From Desulfobulbaceae bacterium (lineage in GTDB: Bacteria > Desulfobacterota > Desulfobulbia > Desulfobulbales > Desulfocapsaceae), in the NCBI GenBank assembly GCA_026988015.1, contig JALSMA010000045.1:1-46653 (forward strand): a stretch of 46,653 bases of DNA. The letters are read 5' to 3'. Position 1 is the stretch's first letter. Each line of letters starts with the position of its first letter. Shown here piece after piece: positions 8,451 to 11,849 of the stretch. The position numbers and the translations under genes were made by a program. Under the pieces are notes generated by a model, which saw nothing but the letters and a program-made list of their open reading frames with translations, ran no database searches and had not been told where the DNA came from.

Positions 8451-8699
8451 TCAAACTTTTTGGGCTGATGCTCGTTTGGCAGCTTTCAAAGGATTAATCC
8501 GTACTGTGGTGACAGTGATCTCTGGCTTTGCATGAGTTGCAAAATTGCAGATTCCAAGACGCCATTTCGATTCTGGTTTAAGATACGACTGACAGAACTG
8601 AGACTCAGCTTCCTCAACAATTCTATCGCACCCGGTGCATTGTTCGACAACGGGTTGAAAGTTCCTTTCACTATAACTTGTAGCAGCCTGATTCTGCAT
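8451..8699 (-). CDS. PxxKW family cysteine-rich protein
   Basis: An 82-residue protein with a CTGCDRIV motif, further cysteines at FCQSYL and GICNFATH, and the sequence PESKW, matching the pattern that gives the PxxKW family its name. Four cysteines spaced this way suggest a bound metal or iron-sulfur site. The biochemical role is not established; members are known mainly from sulfate reducers and relatives. The C-terminus is Lys/Ala-rich (NPLKAAKRA). ATG at 8699 follows GAGGAG. It is a monocistronic unit: a near-consensus promoter (8792-8820) and a terminator (8383-8428) bracket it. Confidence 0.8.
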   Translation of the reverse strand: MQNQAATSYSERNFQPVVEQCTGCDRIVEEAESQFCQSYLKPESKWRLGICNFATHAKPEITVTTVRINPLKAAKRASAQKV

Positions 8700-8957
8700 G
8701 CTGTTCTCCTCAAAGTCTTTGTTTCAAATCTTTATAAAATCAAAAATGCAGGAAACCTGATCTCCCACTATAGTTATTAACCAAATCATGTATTATACCA
8801 AGAGTAACGCATTTAGACAAGGATAAAAACAGAATCTTCTCCAAAACGACACTTTCCCAATACATCTTCCCGATACAGCATACCACTACTGGTAAATCCC
8901 TGGTGTTGTTGAGATTGCTTTATTTGACAGGACTCGTAAAAACTTACCGCCTCCTTC
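8700..8957. other. intergenic region between the PxxKW gene and the IS66 remnant
   Basis: Holds the PxxKW leader and promoter up to 8820. From 8821 to 8957 no gene or clear structure was recognised; this strip is probably host DNA abutting the insertion element end at 8958. Confidence 0.45.
8792..8820 (-). promoter_or_regulatory. sigma70-type promoter for the PxxKW gene
   Basis: On the minus strand TTGTCT (8815-8820) and TATAAT (8792-8797) are 17 bp apart. Predicted transcript start near 8785, giving a leader of about 85 nt before the ATG at 8699. Confidence 0.75.
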
Positions 8958-8994
8958 GTAATGCGCCCCTCAGGAATTGCCCAGGGGGTAAGAT

Positions 8995-9138
8995 TTATGC
9001 CCCTCTCCTTGAAGGAGTATGCTCCAGACTGAGTCCGTCCAGCAGCCAGGCGAGTTCATACCCGTGCACAGCAAGTACATCCTCTGCAGTTTCAAGCCAG
9101 CGGAAGCGATCCTTTTCCAGTCGTTTATGCCAGAGGCA
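8995..9138 (-). pseudogene. tnpB: 3' fragment of IS66 tnpB
   Basis: Minus-strand translation from 9138 reads CLWHKRLEKDRFRW followed by AEDVLAVHGYELAWLLDGL and a TAA at 8995. This is the typical C-terminal half of IS66 TnpB (usual form: FCLWHKRLEKxRFRWP then ELxWLLDG). Its N-terminal partner is at 10750-10882, more than 1.6 kb away, with about 20 codons of the middle lost. Too short and offset to appear as an ordinary ORF. Confidence 0.85.
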
Positions 9139-9224
9139 GTTATGCCGATGTTCTAATTATGCCGAGGATGAACCAAAGGTTGTAGTGTGCCTGAATATTC
9201 ACACTTCCATGCCTCGGCATAATT
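9124..9224. repeat. TTATGCC repeats and 13-bp inverted repeat at the recombinase-element end
   Basis: TTATGCC appears at about 9125, 9140 and 9157 (the last two as TTATGCCGA). AATTATGCCGAGG at 9155-9167 is matched by its perfect inverse CCTCGGCATAATT at 9212-9224. The cluster begins where tnpB homology stops (9139) and ends just after the recombinase stop (9250), so these are probably binding or cleavage sites at the left end of the inserted element. The copy at 9125 lies in tnpB and may be chance. Confidence 0.6.
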
Positions 9225-9249
9225 TATTACCATTACTTCCGCAACAGGT

Positions 9250-10254
9250 TCAGAGTGCCTTCAAGAATTCTATCAAGTTGTCATCAGGTTTAAAGGTCAC
9301 CGGCTTGGCACTGATAGGGAGTGTCTTTTCGAAAATCTTAATCTTCTGTGTTAAATCCGAATTCATATAGGCTTGAGTGCTCTCAAGGGATTCATGGCCA
9401 AGCCAAAGTGCAATTACGGATAAATCCACTCCGGATTGAAGTAGATATACAGCAGCGGTATGTCGAAGCACATGTGGACTTACACGCTTTTTCAAAAGTG
9501 ATGAACAACGCTGTCCTGCCACGAATACATATTTGCCGAGGATGTATCCGACTGTGTCCCGGTTGAGCTTGTTTTCTTTCCTGGTGGGAAATAGTTGCAC
9601 TGAGGGCGGCTTAGGGCTCCACTCGCCGAGCCAGTGCTCAATGATTACCGAAACCGTTCTACCCAAAGGCATCGAGCAATCTTTCCGCCCTTTTCCAGTG
9701 CAGTGAACATAAGCACCTTCTCCTAAAGTGACGTTACTGCAGCACGGGTTGATGAGTTCCGAGACTCTCAACCCCGTATGGACTGCTAAAGAAATGAGTG
9801 CGTGATCCCCACGCCCGATCCAGGAGGACCTGCCAATGGCATCCAAGATTGCATCGACTTCATCGACGGTAAGAAAGTCGATTTCACGCTTTCGGTAGCG
9901 CTTGGTTGGAATCGCTAAAACACGCTGAATATGTGCGGATAGCTGTGGTTCCTGAAAGGACGTATAGTGGAAGAATGAACGGATAGCCGCAAGACGATGG
10001 TTACGAGTACGAGGCGTGTTGTGCCGTTTCTCTTCCAAGTGGTTGAGGAATTTGCAGATGAGTGAAACGTCCAAGTCCTCGAGCTGCAACTTTGACGGCG
10101 TTTTACCGAGTTCACATTGAGCATATTTGAGCAGCAGGCGAAATGTATCACGACATGCTAAAATAGTTTCCTTGCTGACCCGTTTTTGATTCATTAGCCT
10201 CTCGATGAAGAATCCTTCCATAATGGGTGCCAGAGTCGAGGATGAGTTTTTCAT
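9250..10254 (-). CDS. tyrosine-type site-specific recombinase, last gene of the element
   Basis: A 334-residue, apparently intact phage-integrase-type recombinase. An N-terminal SAM-like core-binding domain (about 10-110) precedes the catalytic domain. Active-site residues are all visible: R163 (TGLRVSEL), K188 (CTGKGRK), H261 and R264 (PHVLRHTA), H287 (LWLGHES) and the nucleophile Y296 (STQAYMNSD). ATG at 10254 overlaps the stop of the upstream recombinase fragment by 4 bp, implying translational coupling. Related proteins usually occur as the last member of a pair or trio. Whether it still acts on the nearby TTATGCC repeats is open; its partner is broken. Confidence 0.9.
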   Translation of the reverse strand: MKNSSSTLAPIMEGFFIERLMNQKRVSKETILACRDTFRLLLKYAQCELGKTPSKLQLEDLDVSLICKFLNHLEEKRHNTPRTRNHRLAAIRSFFHYTSFQEPQLSAHIQRVLAIPTKRYRKREIDFLTVDEVDAILDAIGRSSWIGRGDHALISLAVHTGLRVSELINPCCSNVTLGEGAYVHCTGKGRKDCSMPLGRTVSVIIEHWLGEWSPKPPSVQLFPTRKENKLNRDTVGYILGKYVFVAGQRCSSLLKKRVSPHVLRHTAAVYLLQSGVDLSVIALWLGHESLESTQAYMNSDLTQKIKIFEKTLPISAKPVTFKPDDNLIEFLKAL

Positions 10255-10749
10255 AGAATACCTCGCTTTCTCTCGAGACGATTTCGAGCCAGTTCCAGGA
10301 ACTCGGGAACGGCCGAGAAATACCAGTAGGTGGAGGAAGGTCCGACGTGACCCATGTAGAACGAGAGCGCGTCCACCGCCTGCTCAACATCGCGATCCCT
10401 TTTATAGATGTCGATTAGGCTGTTCACTGCGAAGCTGTGGCGCATATCATGTATGCGTGATCCTTTCCCGTGACTTGTATCCCGAATGCCTATCTTGAAG
10501 CATAGTTGTCTGAAAGTTTGTTGGGCGATTGCGGTCGTTGGCCGGGTGCCAATAGAGCTTAGGAAGAATGATGGCGATTGAGCATTGGGAAAGATTTGAT
10601 CGCGCCAACGAGCATAATGTGCCAGGGCACTTGCGGTGGACGCATGCACCGGGACCAGGCGAGACTTGCCGAACTTGGCATTACGAATTGTGAGCAATTG
10701 GTTGACGAAATCCACATTTTCTCTGTCGAGGGCCAAGGCTTCAGAGATG
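10251..10749 (-). pseudogene. N-terminally truncated tyrosine recombinase
   Basis: Minus-strand frame beginning ISEALALDRENVD continues with TIRNAKFGKSRLVP, RIHDMRHSFAV (His/Arg), FYMGHVG (His) and STYWYFSA (Tyr). The first catalytic arginine normally comes immediately before ISEAL, so the break removes it together with the whole N-terminal domain. About 165 residues remain of a protein usually near 320. The fusion point with tnpB lies at about 10750. It ends in an ATGA overlap with the next recombinase. Confidence 0.85.
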
Positions 10750-10882
10750 TGAAGAGGTAGCCGGATAATGGATTGAGTTCTAGCTGATCAGCCACCAGCA
10801 GAGATAGGCCGTTGATGGACTTGCGAATATCGGTGACACCGGGCGCTATGTACACCCGTGCAGGAGCAGCTGGATAAAACAT
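10750..10882 (-). pseudogene. tnpB: 5' fragment of IS66 tnpB
   Basis: ATG at 10882 starts a sequence typical of IS66 TnpB: YIAPGVTDIRKSINGLSLLV followed by LNPLSGYLF, 44 residues in all, after which homology ends and recombinase sequence begins in another frame. Its ATG overlaps the ancestral tnpA stop (TAATG at 10880-10884). The frame runs on to 10559 as a chimera without meaning. Confidence 0.85.
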
Positions 10883-11223
10883 TACCGGTTCTCCAGTACG
10901 GTAAGCACTTGGCTGAGTACCCTTGGTTAAAACTGTTCGCTGACCTCTCTGGCAATAAGATCACTCAGGAGAATTTTTACTCCCGAGGTTGCAGCAGGCT
11001 GGCCGGATCGTCGAATCTTCTCCATGGGCACCGGGGCCAGCTGAGATGTTTTGCGGGAAAATTCTGACATCTTTCTCTGCCAGTAGGTCATGGCATGGTA
11101 GGAGAGGCCATGCAGACGACAATATTCTGCTCGGCTCAAGCCGCTTTTCTGCTGGGCCCTGATGTGTGCCTGCCAATGGTGCCTGGATCTTGACCTCTTC
11201 CCGCCATCTTTGTAATCTGCCAT
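10882..11223 (-). pseudogene. tnpA: IS66 tnpA with an in-frame nonsense codon
   Basis: ATG at 11223 begins MADYKDGG and leads into the helix-turn-helix region typical of IS66 TnpA (SGLSRAEYCRLHGLSYHAM, then YWQRKM). The frame stops at TAA 10927-10929 after REVSEQF, 98 residues. Reading past that codon the same frame continues PRVLSQVLTVLENR and stops at 10882-10884 overlapping the tnpB ATG, which matches the normal TnpA ending and the usual coupling. So the internal TAA is a point nonsense mutation. In-frame sequence upstream of 11223 includes the element end and is not coding. Confidence 0.78.
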
Positions 11224-11303
11224 CTGAATCCGCCCTGGTTGTGGTTTCCGATGGGATTCATTATGACACATCGCGACCTGAGAAAAAAATAGGGTTATTT
11301 TGT

Positions 11304-11312
11304 GGCGCTTAC
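11304..11312 (-). repeat. left terminal inverted repeat of the IS66 element
   Basis: GTAAGCGCC reading leftward from 11312. The facing end at 8958-8967 reads GTAATGCGCC, the same motif with one inserted base. Confidence 0.6.
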
Positions 11313-11411
11313 GAATATTTCGGCCTCCAATTGAGGTTAATCCTCCACCAGACGATGAAAATATGGTGAAAATCCATAGTGGCTTTATGTCAAAGAACAA
11401 TTTAACGGAAA

Positions 11412-11452
11412 TTCAAGCACCAATCCATCATGATGATGGATTGGTGCTTGAA
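11412..11452. repeat. perfect 20-bp inverted repeat with 1-nt centre
   Basis: TTCAAGCACCAATCCATCAT at 11412-11431 is followed after one base by its exact reverse complement to 11452. No U-tract follows on either strand and no gene ends next to it, so it is not an obvious terminator. It lies 100 bp outside the IS66 end. Confidence 0.85.
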
Positions 11453-11849
11453 ACTCTAAACTTCAGATTGTAAAAAAAACCACCAAAAAGTACCACATTC
11501 GCATACCTCAAAGTGAAAATAAAAAAAACACTCATAGCAATACTCTAGCTTGTAATCTCTAACATCATGATATAGAATAAATTTGTTTAATAATTTCATT
11601 ATCCTGAATCCGTGGACGTTGGATGGTGATGTTGTCTGTTTTTTTTATGAACACTTTAATTGTAGTAAGTATATCAATGGGTTCAAAGAAAACAGGTGTG
11701 CCGAAAACGAACGTTCTATAGGGATGCAAGTATCTTTTTACAAAGCTGATTATTAATTTTAAATTTGCATTTCAGTATATTACTAAAAGAATGATGACGA
11801 AGCCGTCACAATTACAGGATTATCTCATTGTATTTATTAGGCTTGCATT

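Follow-up and report, generated by a model that had tools for sequence, protein, structure and literature searches.

Probable decayed nest of a RIT element within an IS66 remnant upstream of pilC in a Desulfobulbaceae genome

The foreign block at ~8.84-11.5 kb, which occupies an intergenic position upstream of pilC in a Desulfobulbaceae bacterium, is best explained as a decayed nest of two mobile elements, a reading to which we assign a probability of roughly 0.93. An IS66 element would have arrived first, a RIT would have integrated at a core within its tnpB gene, and an inner deletion together with a separate 3' loss would have left an orphan RitC that should be immobile. Coordinates refer to the window, the whole stretch of 46,653 nucleotides that was analysed (contig JALSMA010000045.1). 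Read on the minus strand, the block consists of the IS66 left inverted repeat, tnpA, tnpB codons 1-44, part of RitB, RitC, a RIT end and tnpB codons ~65-104. The features are listed below, where L183 is a complete IS66 relative and L197 the nearest RIT found.

11224..11312, minus strand: IS66 left end, with the inverted repeat GTAAGCGCCACA... from 11312 and the leader up to tnpA (from the sequence and the starts of relatives)
10927..11223, minus strand: tnpA, an IS66 accessory gene, apparently intact, with its ATG at 11223 and stop at 10927 (NCBIfam NF047593 IS66_ISAeme5_TnpA, 67.2 bits, cut-off 28)
10751..10882, minus strand: tnpB 5' piece, codons 1-44 (PF05717, TnpB_IS66, positions 2-37; 82% at the amino acid level to L183 TnpB 1-44)
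10747..10756, minus strand: deletion junction tnpB::ritB, CTCTTCACAT, resembling TCTTCGCAT of L183 tnpB and L197 ritB
10251..10750, minus strand: C-terminal part of ritB, from ISEA... behind the GLR motif (PF00589 positions 38-165; 76% at the amino acid level to L197 RitB over 165 residues)
9250..10254, minus strand: ritC, intact, 334 amino acids (PF00589, 101.8 bits)
9140..9224, no strand: ritC-side RIT end, with arms TTATGCCGA at 9140-9148 and 9157-9165 and an inner inverted copy at 9212-9224 (same architecture in other RIT ends and in L197)
9134..9139, no strand: CTGCCT, the 6-bp core where RIT and tnpB meet (L197 carries CTGCAT / CTGTAT at this codon)
9020..9139, minus strand: tnpB 3' piece, ~codons 65-104 (PF05717 positions 58-98; 87.5% DNA identity to the L183 IS66)
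8919..8990, no strand: dispersed ~60-bp repeat outside IS66 (6 further copies in the genome, 76-84% identity)

The two tnpB pieces lie on one strand, the 3' piece starting from 9138/9139, and cover complementary parts of PF05717, as the original prediction had proposed. In all six IS66 relatives that were aligned (L183, L184, L185, L186, L192 and L194, all from genomes of the same order and chosen from 12 IS66-matching loci), the pieces follow in the same order within one unbroken ORF, exactly 60 bp (20 codons) apart, and no rit matches accompany tnpB in the relatives examined. A non-contiguous tnpB in intact relatives had been named as grounds for abandoning the nest; it was found in none of the six. 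Both pieces were also matched in order in L193, L159 and L160, while L189 matched the 5' piece only and L190 and L191 neither. L183 is a complete IS66 of 2430 bp with an 8-bp target duplication, AAATTCCT, on both sides. Its DNA aligns with the window at 11175-10742 and 9139-9020 and nowhere else in the block; by these limits, the loss at the inner junction amounts to 20 tnpB codons, and that at the outer one comprises the tail of tnpB, tnpC and the right end.

At the left, the start of the IS66 end is identical in L183, L186, L192 and L194. Four other IS66 left-end fragments are present in the window genome, two of which, C66:8228-8322 (L003, 95%) and C67:353-474 (L002, 88%), share a break-off point about six codons into tnpA (ATGGCAGATTACAAAGAT). 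Of the terminal inverted repeats (GTAAGCGC...), the left is present at 11312 and the right is absent. The right ends of L183, L186, L192 and L194 read ..GCGCTTAC, and the proposed right boundary at 8958 (GTAATGCGCCCC) was rejected, as it lies inside the dispersed repeat. Similarly, the 3' half of tnpB had been drawn to 8995. Its protein alignment extends weakly to 9004 (69% at the amino acid level to L183), and since DNA homology to the L183 IS66 ends at 9020, position 8958 and the stop at 8995 are not natural ends. The absence of tnpC was upheld: neither of two TnpC queries matches anything across the 46.7 kb of the window (E<=1). With the right end gone, a target duplication for the window IS66 cannot be shown. 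The statement that the IS cannot move alone was correct and too weak, because mobilisation of the remnant in trans as an IS66 would presumably fail too for lack of a right inverted repeat. The RIT may instead have landed in an IS66 that had already lost tnpC and its right end. The window sequence bears no sign of which came first, the 3' loss or the RIT insertion, and nothing speaks directly against this order, which we nevertheless consider rather unlikely; the L197 insertion is also in an IS66, one that keeps tnpC.

The 1.6 kb of foreign DNA between the tnpB pieces encodes the whole of RitC and the C-terminal half of RitB, and it includes the ritC-side RIT end. A segment with two recombinases had been predicted here; the segment is real, and RitC alone is complete. 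In RitC, the residues R163, K188, H261, R264, H287 and Y296, which we take to be catalytic, are invariant across an 11-sequence alignment. The ritB remnant encodes ~165 C-terminal amino acids and lacks the start and ~the first 141 residues by S. meliloti numbering, including the GLR motif that presumably holds the first catalytic arginine. The two genes overlap by ATGA at 10251-10254. RitC matches the S. meliloti RitC at 52% versus 27% for RitA, and the RitB part matches RitB at 43% (amino acid level), so that by pairwise matches the window recombinases belong to the RitB and RitC subfamilies. Of the ritA-ritB-ritC trio, only ritC and a 3' portion of ritB survive, and the element is therefore filed as a remnant. 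A search for the element's true ends recovered the ritC-side terminus, with the border at 9139/9140; the other end is deleted. At the border, the arm ...CGGCATAA abuts CTGCCT-CTGG, and the target site in tnpB reads GGCTTCTGCCTCTGG. A duplicated core is not visible in the window because the left RIT end is absent.

The window copy is the one strong RitC match in its own genome (the next has E 5e-22, 26%), and in an evenly drawn sample of 395 genomes of the phylum only the window genome itself matched at E<=1e-105. The IS66 part had no match in a search of plasmids. The sole pattern match to the RIT-tnpB junction in viral_contigs, L210, carries no rit or IS66 matches and was set aside as chance.

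The inner junction can be compared directly across its presumed parents: the window reads CTCTTCACATCTCTGAAG, L183 tnpB CTCTTCGCATTCTGC and L197 ritB GGTCTTCGCATCTCTGAG. The 9-nt TCTTCGCAT match between the latter two could have served as a deletion substrate. Among four tnpB relatives checked, the microhomology is exact in L183 and not in L184, L185 or L186, and the copy left in the window differs by one base. By comparison with complete RITs, which mostly measure 3.3-3.45 kb, ~1.7-1.8 kb of the RIT would have been lost. The predicted deletion of upstream recombinase(s) and about 20 tnpB codons agrees with the 60-bp gap and with the missing ritA and ritB start; the second, 3' loss had been overlooked. 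Alternatively, the fusion of tnpB codon 44 to ritB may reflect recombination with another RIT/IS66 copy or an assembly chimera instead of a simple deletion. Some sampled RIT loci do look rearranged (in L057 and L070, an inverted tnpC 3' end lies at either side), and several contigs consist entirely of a RIT. Against this stand the single strong RitC locus of the genome, its two other PF05717 copies, which are just 41-61% alike to the tnpB pieces, and the resemblance of both window pieces to L183 (82% and 69% at the amino acid level), which together make such an origin improbable.

The chromosomal setting is that of an enlarged spacer. A small gene at 8451-8699, which we take to be PxxKW-like, is separated from pilC by 3264 bp in the window genome versus 302-608 bp in five genus relatives (G194, 528 bp; G193, 608 bp; G033, 446 bp; G197, 302 bp; G093, 419 bp). 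Matches to yggS were obtained in 17 of 20 genus genomes including that of the window, and the intergenic region was inspected in these five and in G140. The same IS66::RIT nest was not found at this chromosomal site in any of the six. The closest yggS relative, G140 (88% at the amino acid level), has other DNA at the same intergenic region up to the contig end (L150, 1683-1924). Directly outside the IS66 left end, 11312-11470 is repeated at C64, C91, C8, C69 and C19 of the window genome with 75-95% identity. Two of these copies are at contig ends, and the sequence is perhaps the end of another multicopy element. The IS66 itself may thus have landed in or beside another repeat. Upstream of pilC, the ~200 bp at 11623-11817 match several places in the window genome and correspond to a gap in the five aligned relatives' spacers.

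The nearest RIT, L197, comes from G233, a genome of the same family. Its RitC and RitB are 80% and 76% alike to those of the window at the amino acid level, and its DNA is 78% identical over window 9137-10755. The locus consists of tnpA and the tnpB 5' part, a RIT in the opposite orientation, and the tnpB 3' part followed by tnpC. Its RIT splits tnpB at the same codon as in the window (NGF|C..W). Since the two IS66 elements differ (55% for the tnpB 5' half and 28% for TnpA at the amino acid level), the window and L197 apparently represent two independent, site-specific insertions at one tnpB site. The left border of L197 reads GGGTT-CTGCAT-[degenerate palindrome TTATG..CATAA]-ATACAG-TTATGCCG... 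and the right border ...CGGCATAA-CTGTAT-TTGG, so that both borders carry a 6-bp core; reading the right core as its reverse complement gives the inner hexamer. The L197 RIT is itself broken, with ritC frameshifted and a gene pair, IS630-like by eye, inside ritA. A more distant RIT, L155 in G084, interrupts tnpB at a different codon, and its palindrome lies towards the 3' part of the gene.

The predicted order of IS66, recombinase element and deletion is well supported by the unbroken tnpB of six relatives, by the many other contexts in which RITs are found and by the same-codon insertion in G233. On the favored reading of a decayed nest, an IS66 of the tnpA-tnpB-tnpC type would first have inserted upstream of pilC. 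A ritA-ritB-ritC RIT would then have integrated by tyrosine-recombinase strand exchange at CTGCCT, across tnpB codons 64-66, and split the gene. A deletion, possibly between the TCTTCGCAT matches, would have taken 20 tnpB codons, one RIT end, ritA and ~141 ritB codons, and a separate loss, which may have come before or after it, would have taken tnpC together with the tail of tnpB and the right end of the IS66. The nested remnant is probably inert.

To locate true RIT ends, 90 loci (L035-L124) were surveyed, consisting of the best 80 RitC relatives among the genome_contigs matches listed and ten plasmid loci. Eighteen failed at ritA or terminal-repeat detection and seven at the arms, leaving 65 with both arms; a script detected exactly one palindrome in 38 of these and none in 27. 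At least 20 bp of flank on both sides was available for 34 of the 38 (28 genome_contigs and 6 plasmid loci), and 32 of the 34, those with a 6-nt inner hexamer, entered the core statistics. The counts are approximate, because both the palindrome finder and the arm pattern had been adjusted by visual inspection. Some loci are non-independent, L041 and L112 being nearly the same. The S. meliloti loci L035 and L040 share a 3409-bp stretch at 99.97%, with 28-bp terminal inverted repeats. Five loci (L078, L087, L088, L098 and L124) have palindromes on both sides by eye. Another five (L045, L048, L051, L053 and L114) are 3.3-3.4 kb contigs that each hold one whole RIT, one of them named with a coverage of 461, and are probably collapsed multicopy elements or circles.

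The single palindrome lies at the left in 20 and at the right in 14 of the 34 elements, and the stretch from palindrome to arm is 6 nt in 32 of them. The outer cores of 32 RITs agree at a mean of 4.38 of 6 bases versus 1.91 when permuted, a value that 0 of 2000 permutations reach; they are identical in 13 of the 32, and only 2-3 of 6 bases match in 11. When the core on the palindrome side is reverse-complemented, it agrees with the inner hexamer at 4.53 versus 1.96 bases (0/2000, n=32). These statistics fit a circular attachment site, arm-X-arm.palindrome.arm-X'-arm in its proposed form, whose two mirror cores enclose a palindrome; exchange at either core would leave the palindrome at the left or at the right.

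Among 41 genome_contigs loci of the best-80 sample with at least 120 bp of flank on each side, 8 have tnpC on both sides, contiguous in the query in 7 and with a gap in L068. Plasmid loci were excluded from such frequencies, as L035-L037 were picked for an IS66 named beside them. Fifteen loci combine a detected palindrome with a clear tnpC flank, and in all 15 the palindrome lies towards the tnpC 5' side regardless of RIT orientation; six of these are plasmid loci, partly chosen for IS66, two are near-identical, and L122, a weak tnpC match (E 0.018) contrary to the pattern, is excluded. Ten joined ORFs, the most readable among 48 loci, were run against Pfam, with the following result.

L052: RVT_1
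L073 and L119: Phage_integrase
L099: Phage_integrase, below the cut-off
L081: RadC
L082: IstB
L090: rve
L104: IS110
L113: MPTase-PolyVal
L079: none

By motif, 9 of the 65 loci are split at an LRH-type tyrosine recombinase motif, some readable on one flank only (L054, L056, L059, L061, L067, L073, L085, L099 and L119; the pattern matches L087, L090, L123 and L124 are left out of this count). In L073 and L099, the RITs sit inside the LRH motif of what appear by eye to be the ritC and ritB of other RITs. For none of the 65 both-arm elements did the surrounding 450 bp match tnpB (E<=0.01), the tnpB cases being the window, L197 and L155, and a target logo of 33 sites has no position above 0.8 bit.

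We lean, by a modest degree, towards the view that RIT integration is site-specific, aimed at conserved codons within genes of other mobile elements, and proceeds through a pair of mirrored 6-bp cores that flank a mobile palindrome, with the core used setting both the orientation and the palindrome side. Judged from sequence comparison, the targets would include T[AC]K of IS66 tnpC, F|C of IS66 tnpB, LRH of tyrosine recombinases including apparent RITs, IstB, IS110, rve and a group II-type RT, and the window would record one such event in tnpB. That the recombinases are instead native passenger genes of an IS66-type element, as the frequent occurrence of RITs in IS66 genes might suggest, can be dismissed with near certainty, since RITs form a separate family that also occupies RVT_1, IstB, rve, IS110, RadC, MPTase-PolyVal and Phage_integrase genes, the IS66 relatives examined lack rit matches, and in G233 this RIT type runs opposite to tnpB; the original prediction had named such nativeness as a reason to give up the nest.

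Nesting of a RIT in an IS66 is already a known kind of arrangement, and a decayed nest is by itself ordinary. PMC2864759 describes RITs in a tnpA gene of the IS66 family and in the radC gene of C. metallidurans, as well as short overlaps of the ATGA type between rit genes, and PMC3414803 a RIT in a Tn6049-like transposase gene. Rit subgroups are described in PMC8138268, and GInts are the subject of PMC5385486. According to Table 1 of PMC10214605 (2023), neither the target specificity of RITs nor their empty site or movement had been tested, and the same article states that RIT movement has not been reproduced in the laboratory. A double-core description for RITs was not found in the literature covered, a set that does not include Ricker 2013 or Van Houdt 2009, and no priority is claimed. 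The interesting part is the double-core, site-specific reading, which rests on loci other than the window. Same-codon insertions in opposite orientation, matching cores and a palindrome that follows the polarity of tnpC offer a testable attachment-site model for a widespread RIT family.

Among known systems, the window is closest to RITs in its RitB and RitC subfamily matches, the ATGA overlap and, at the one end that remains, the TTATGCCG-type terminal repeats; it differs in lacking ritA, half of ritB and one end, and in its target, tnpB. With the IS66 family (ISAeme5-type TnpA) it shares the left inverted repeat, tnpA and the tnpB pieces, but it has no tnpC, right inverted repeat or demonstrable target duplication, and its tnpB is broken. 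SE, GInt and Tn554-type tyrosine-recombinase elements resemble RITs in carrying several recombinases and, for SEs and Tn554, in a 6-bp flank bookkeeping (PMC10214605). Unlike SEs and GInts, RITs lack a fourth gene of the SE/GInt type, and their cores are identical on both sides in 13 of 32 cases. The most similar arrangement is the IS66::RIT of L197 in G233, with a RitC 80% alike at the amino acid level and insertion at the same tnpB codon; it differs in lying within another IS66, in the opposite orientation, with tnpC present, ritA interrupted and ritC frameshifted.
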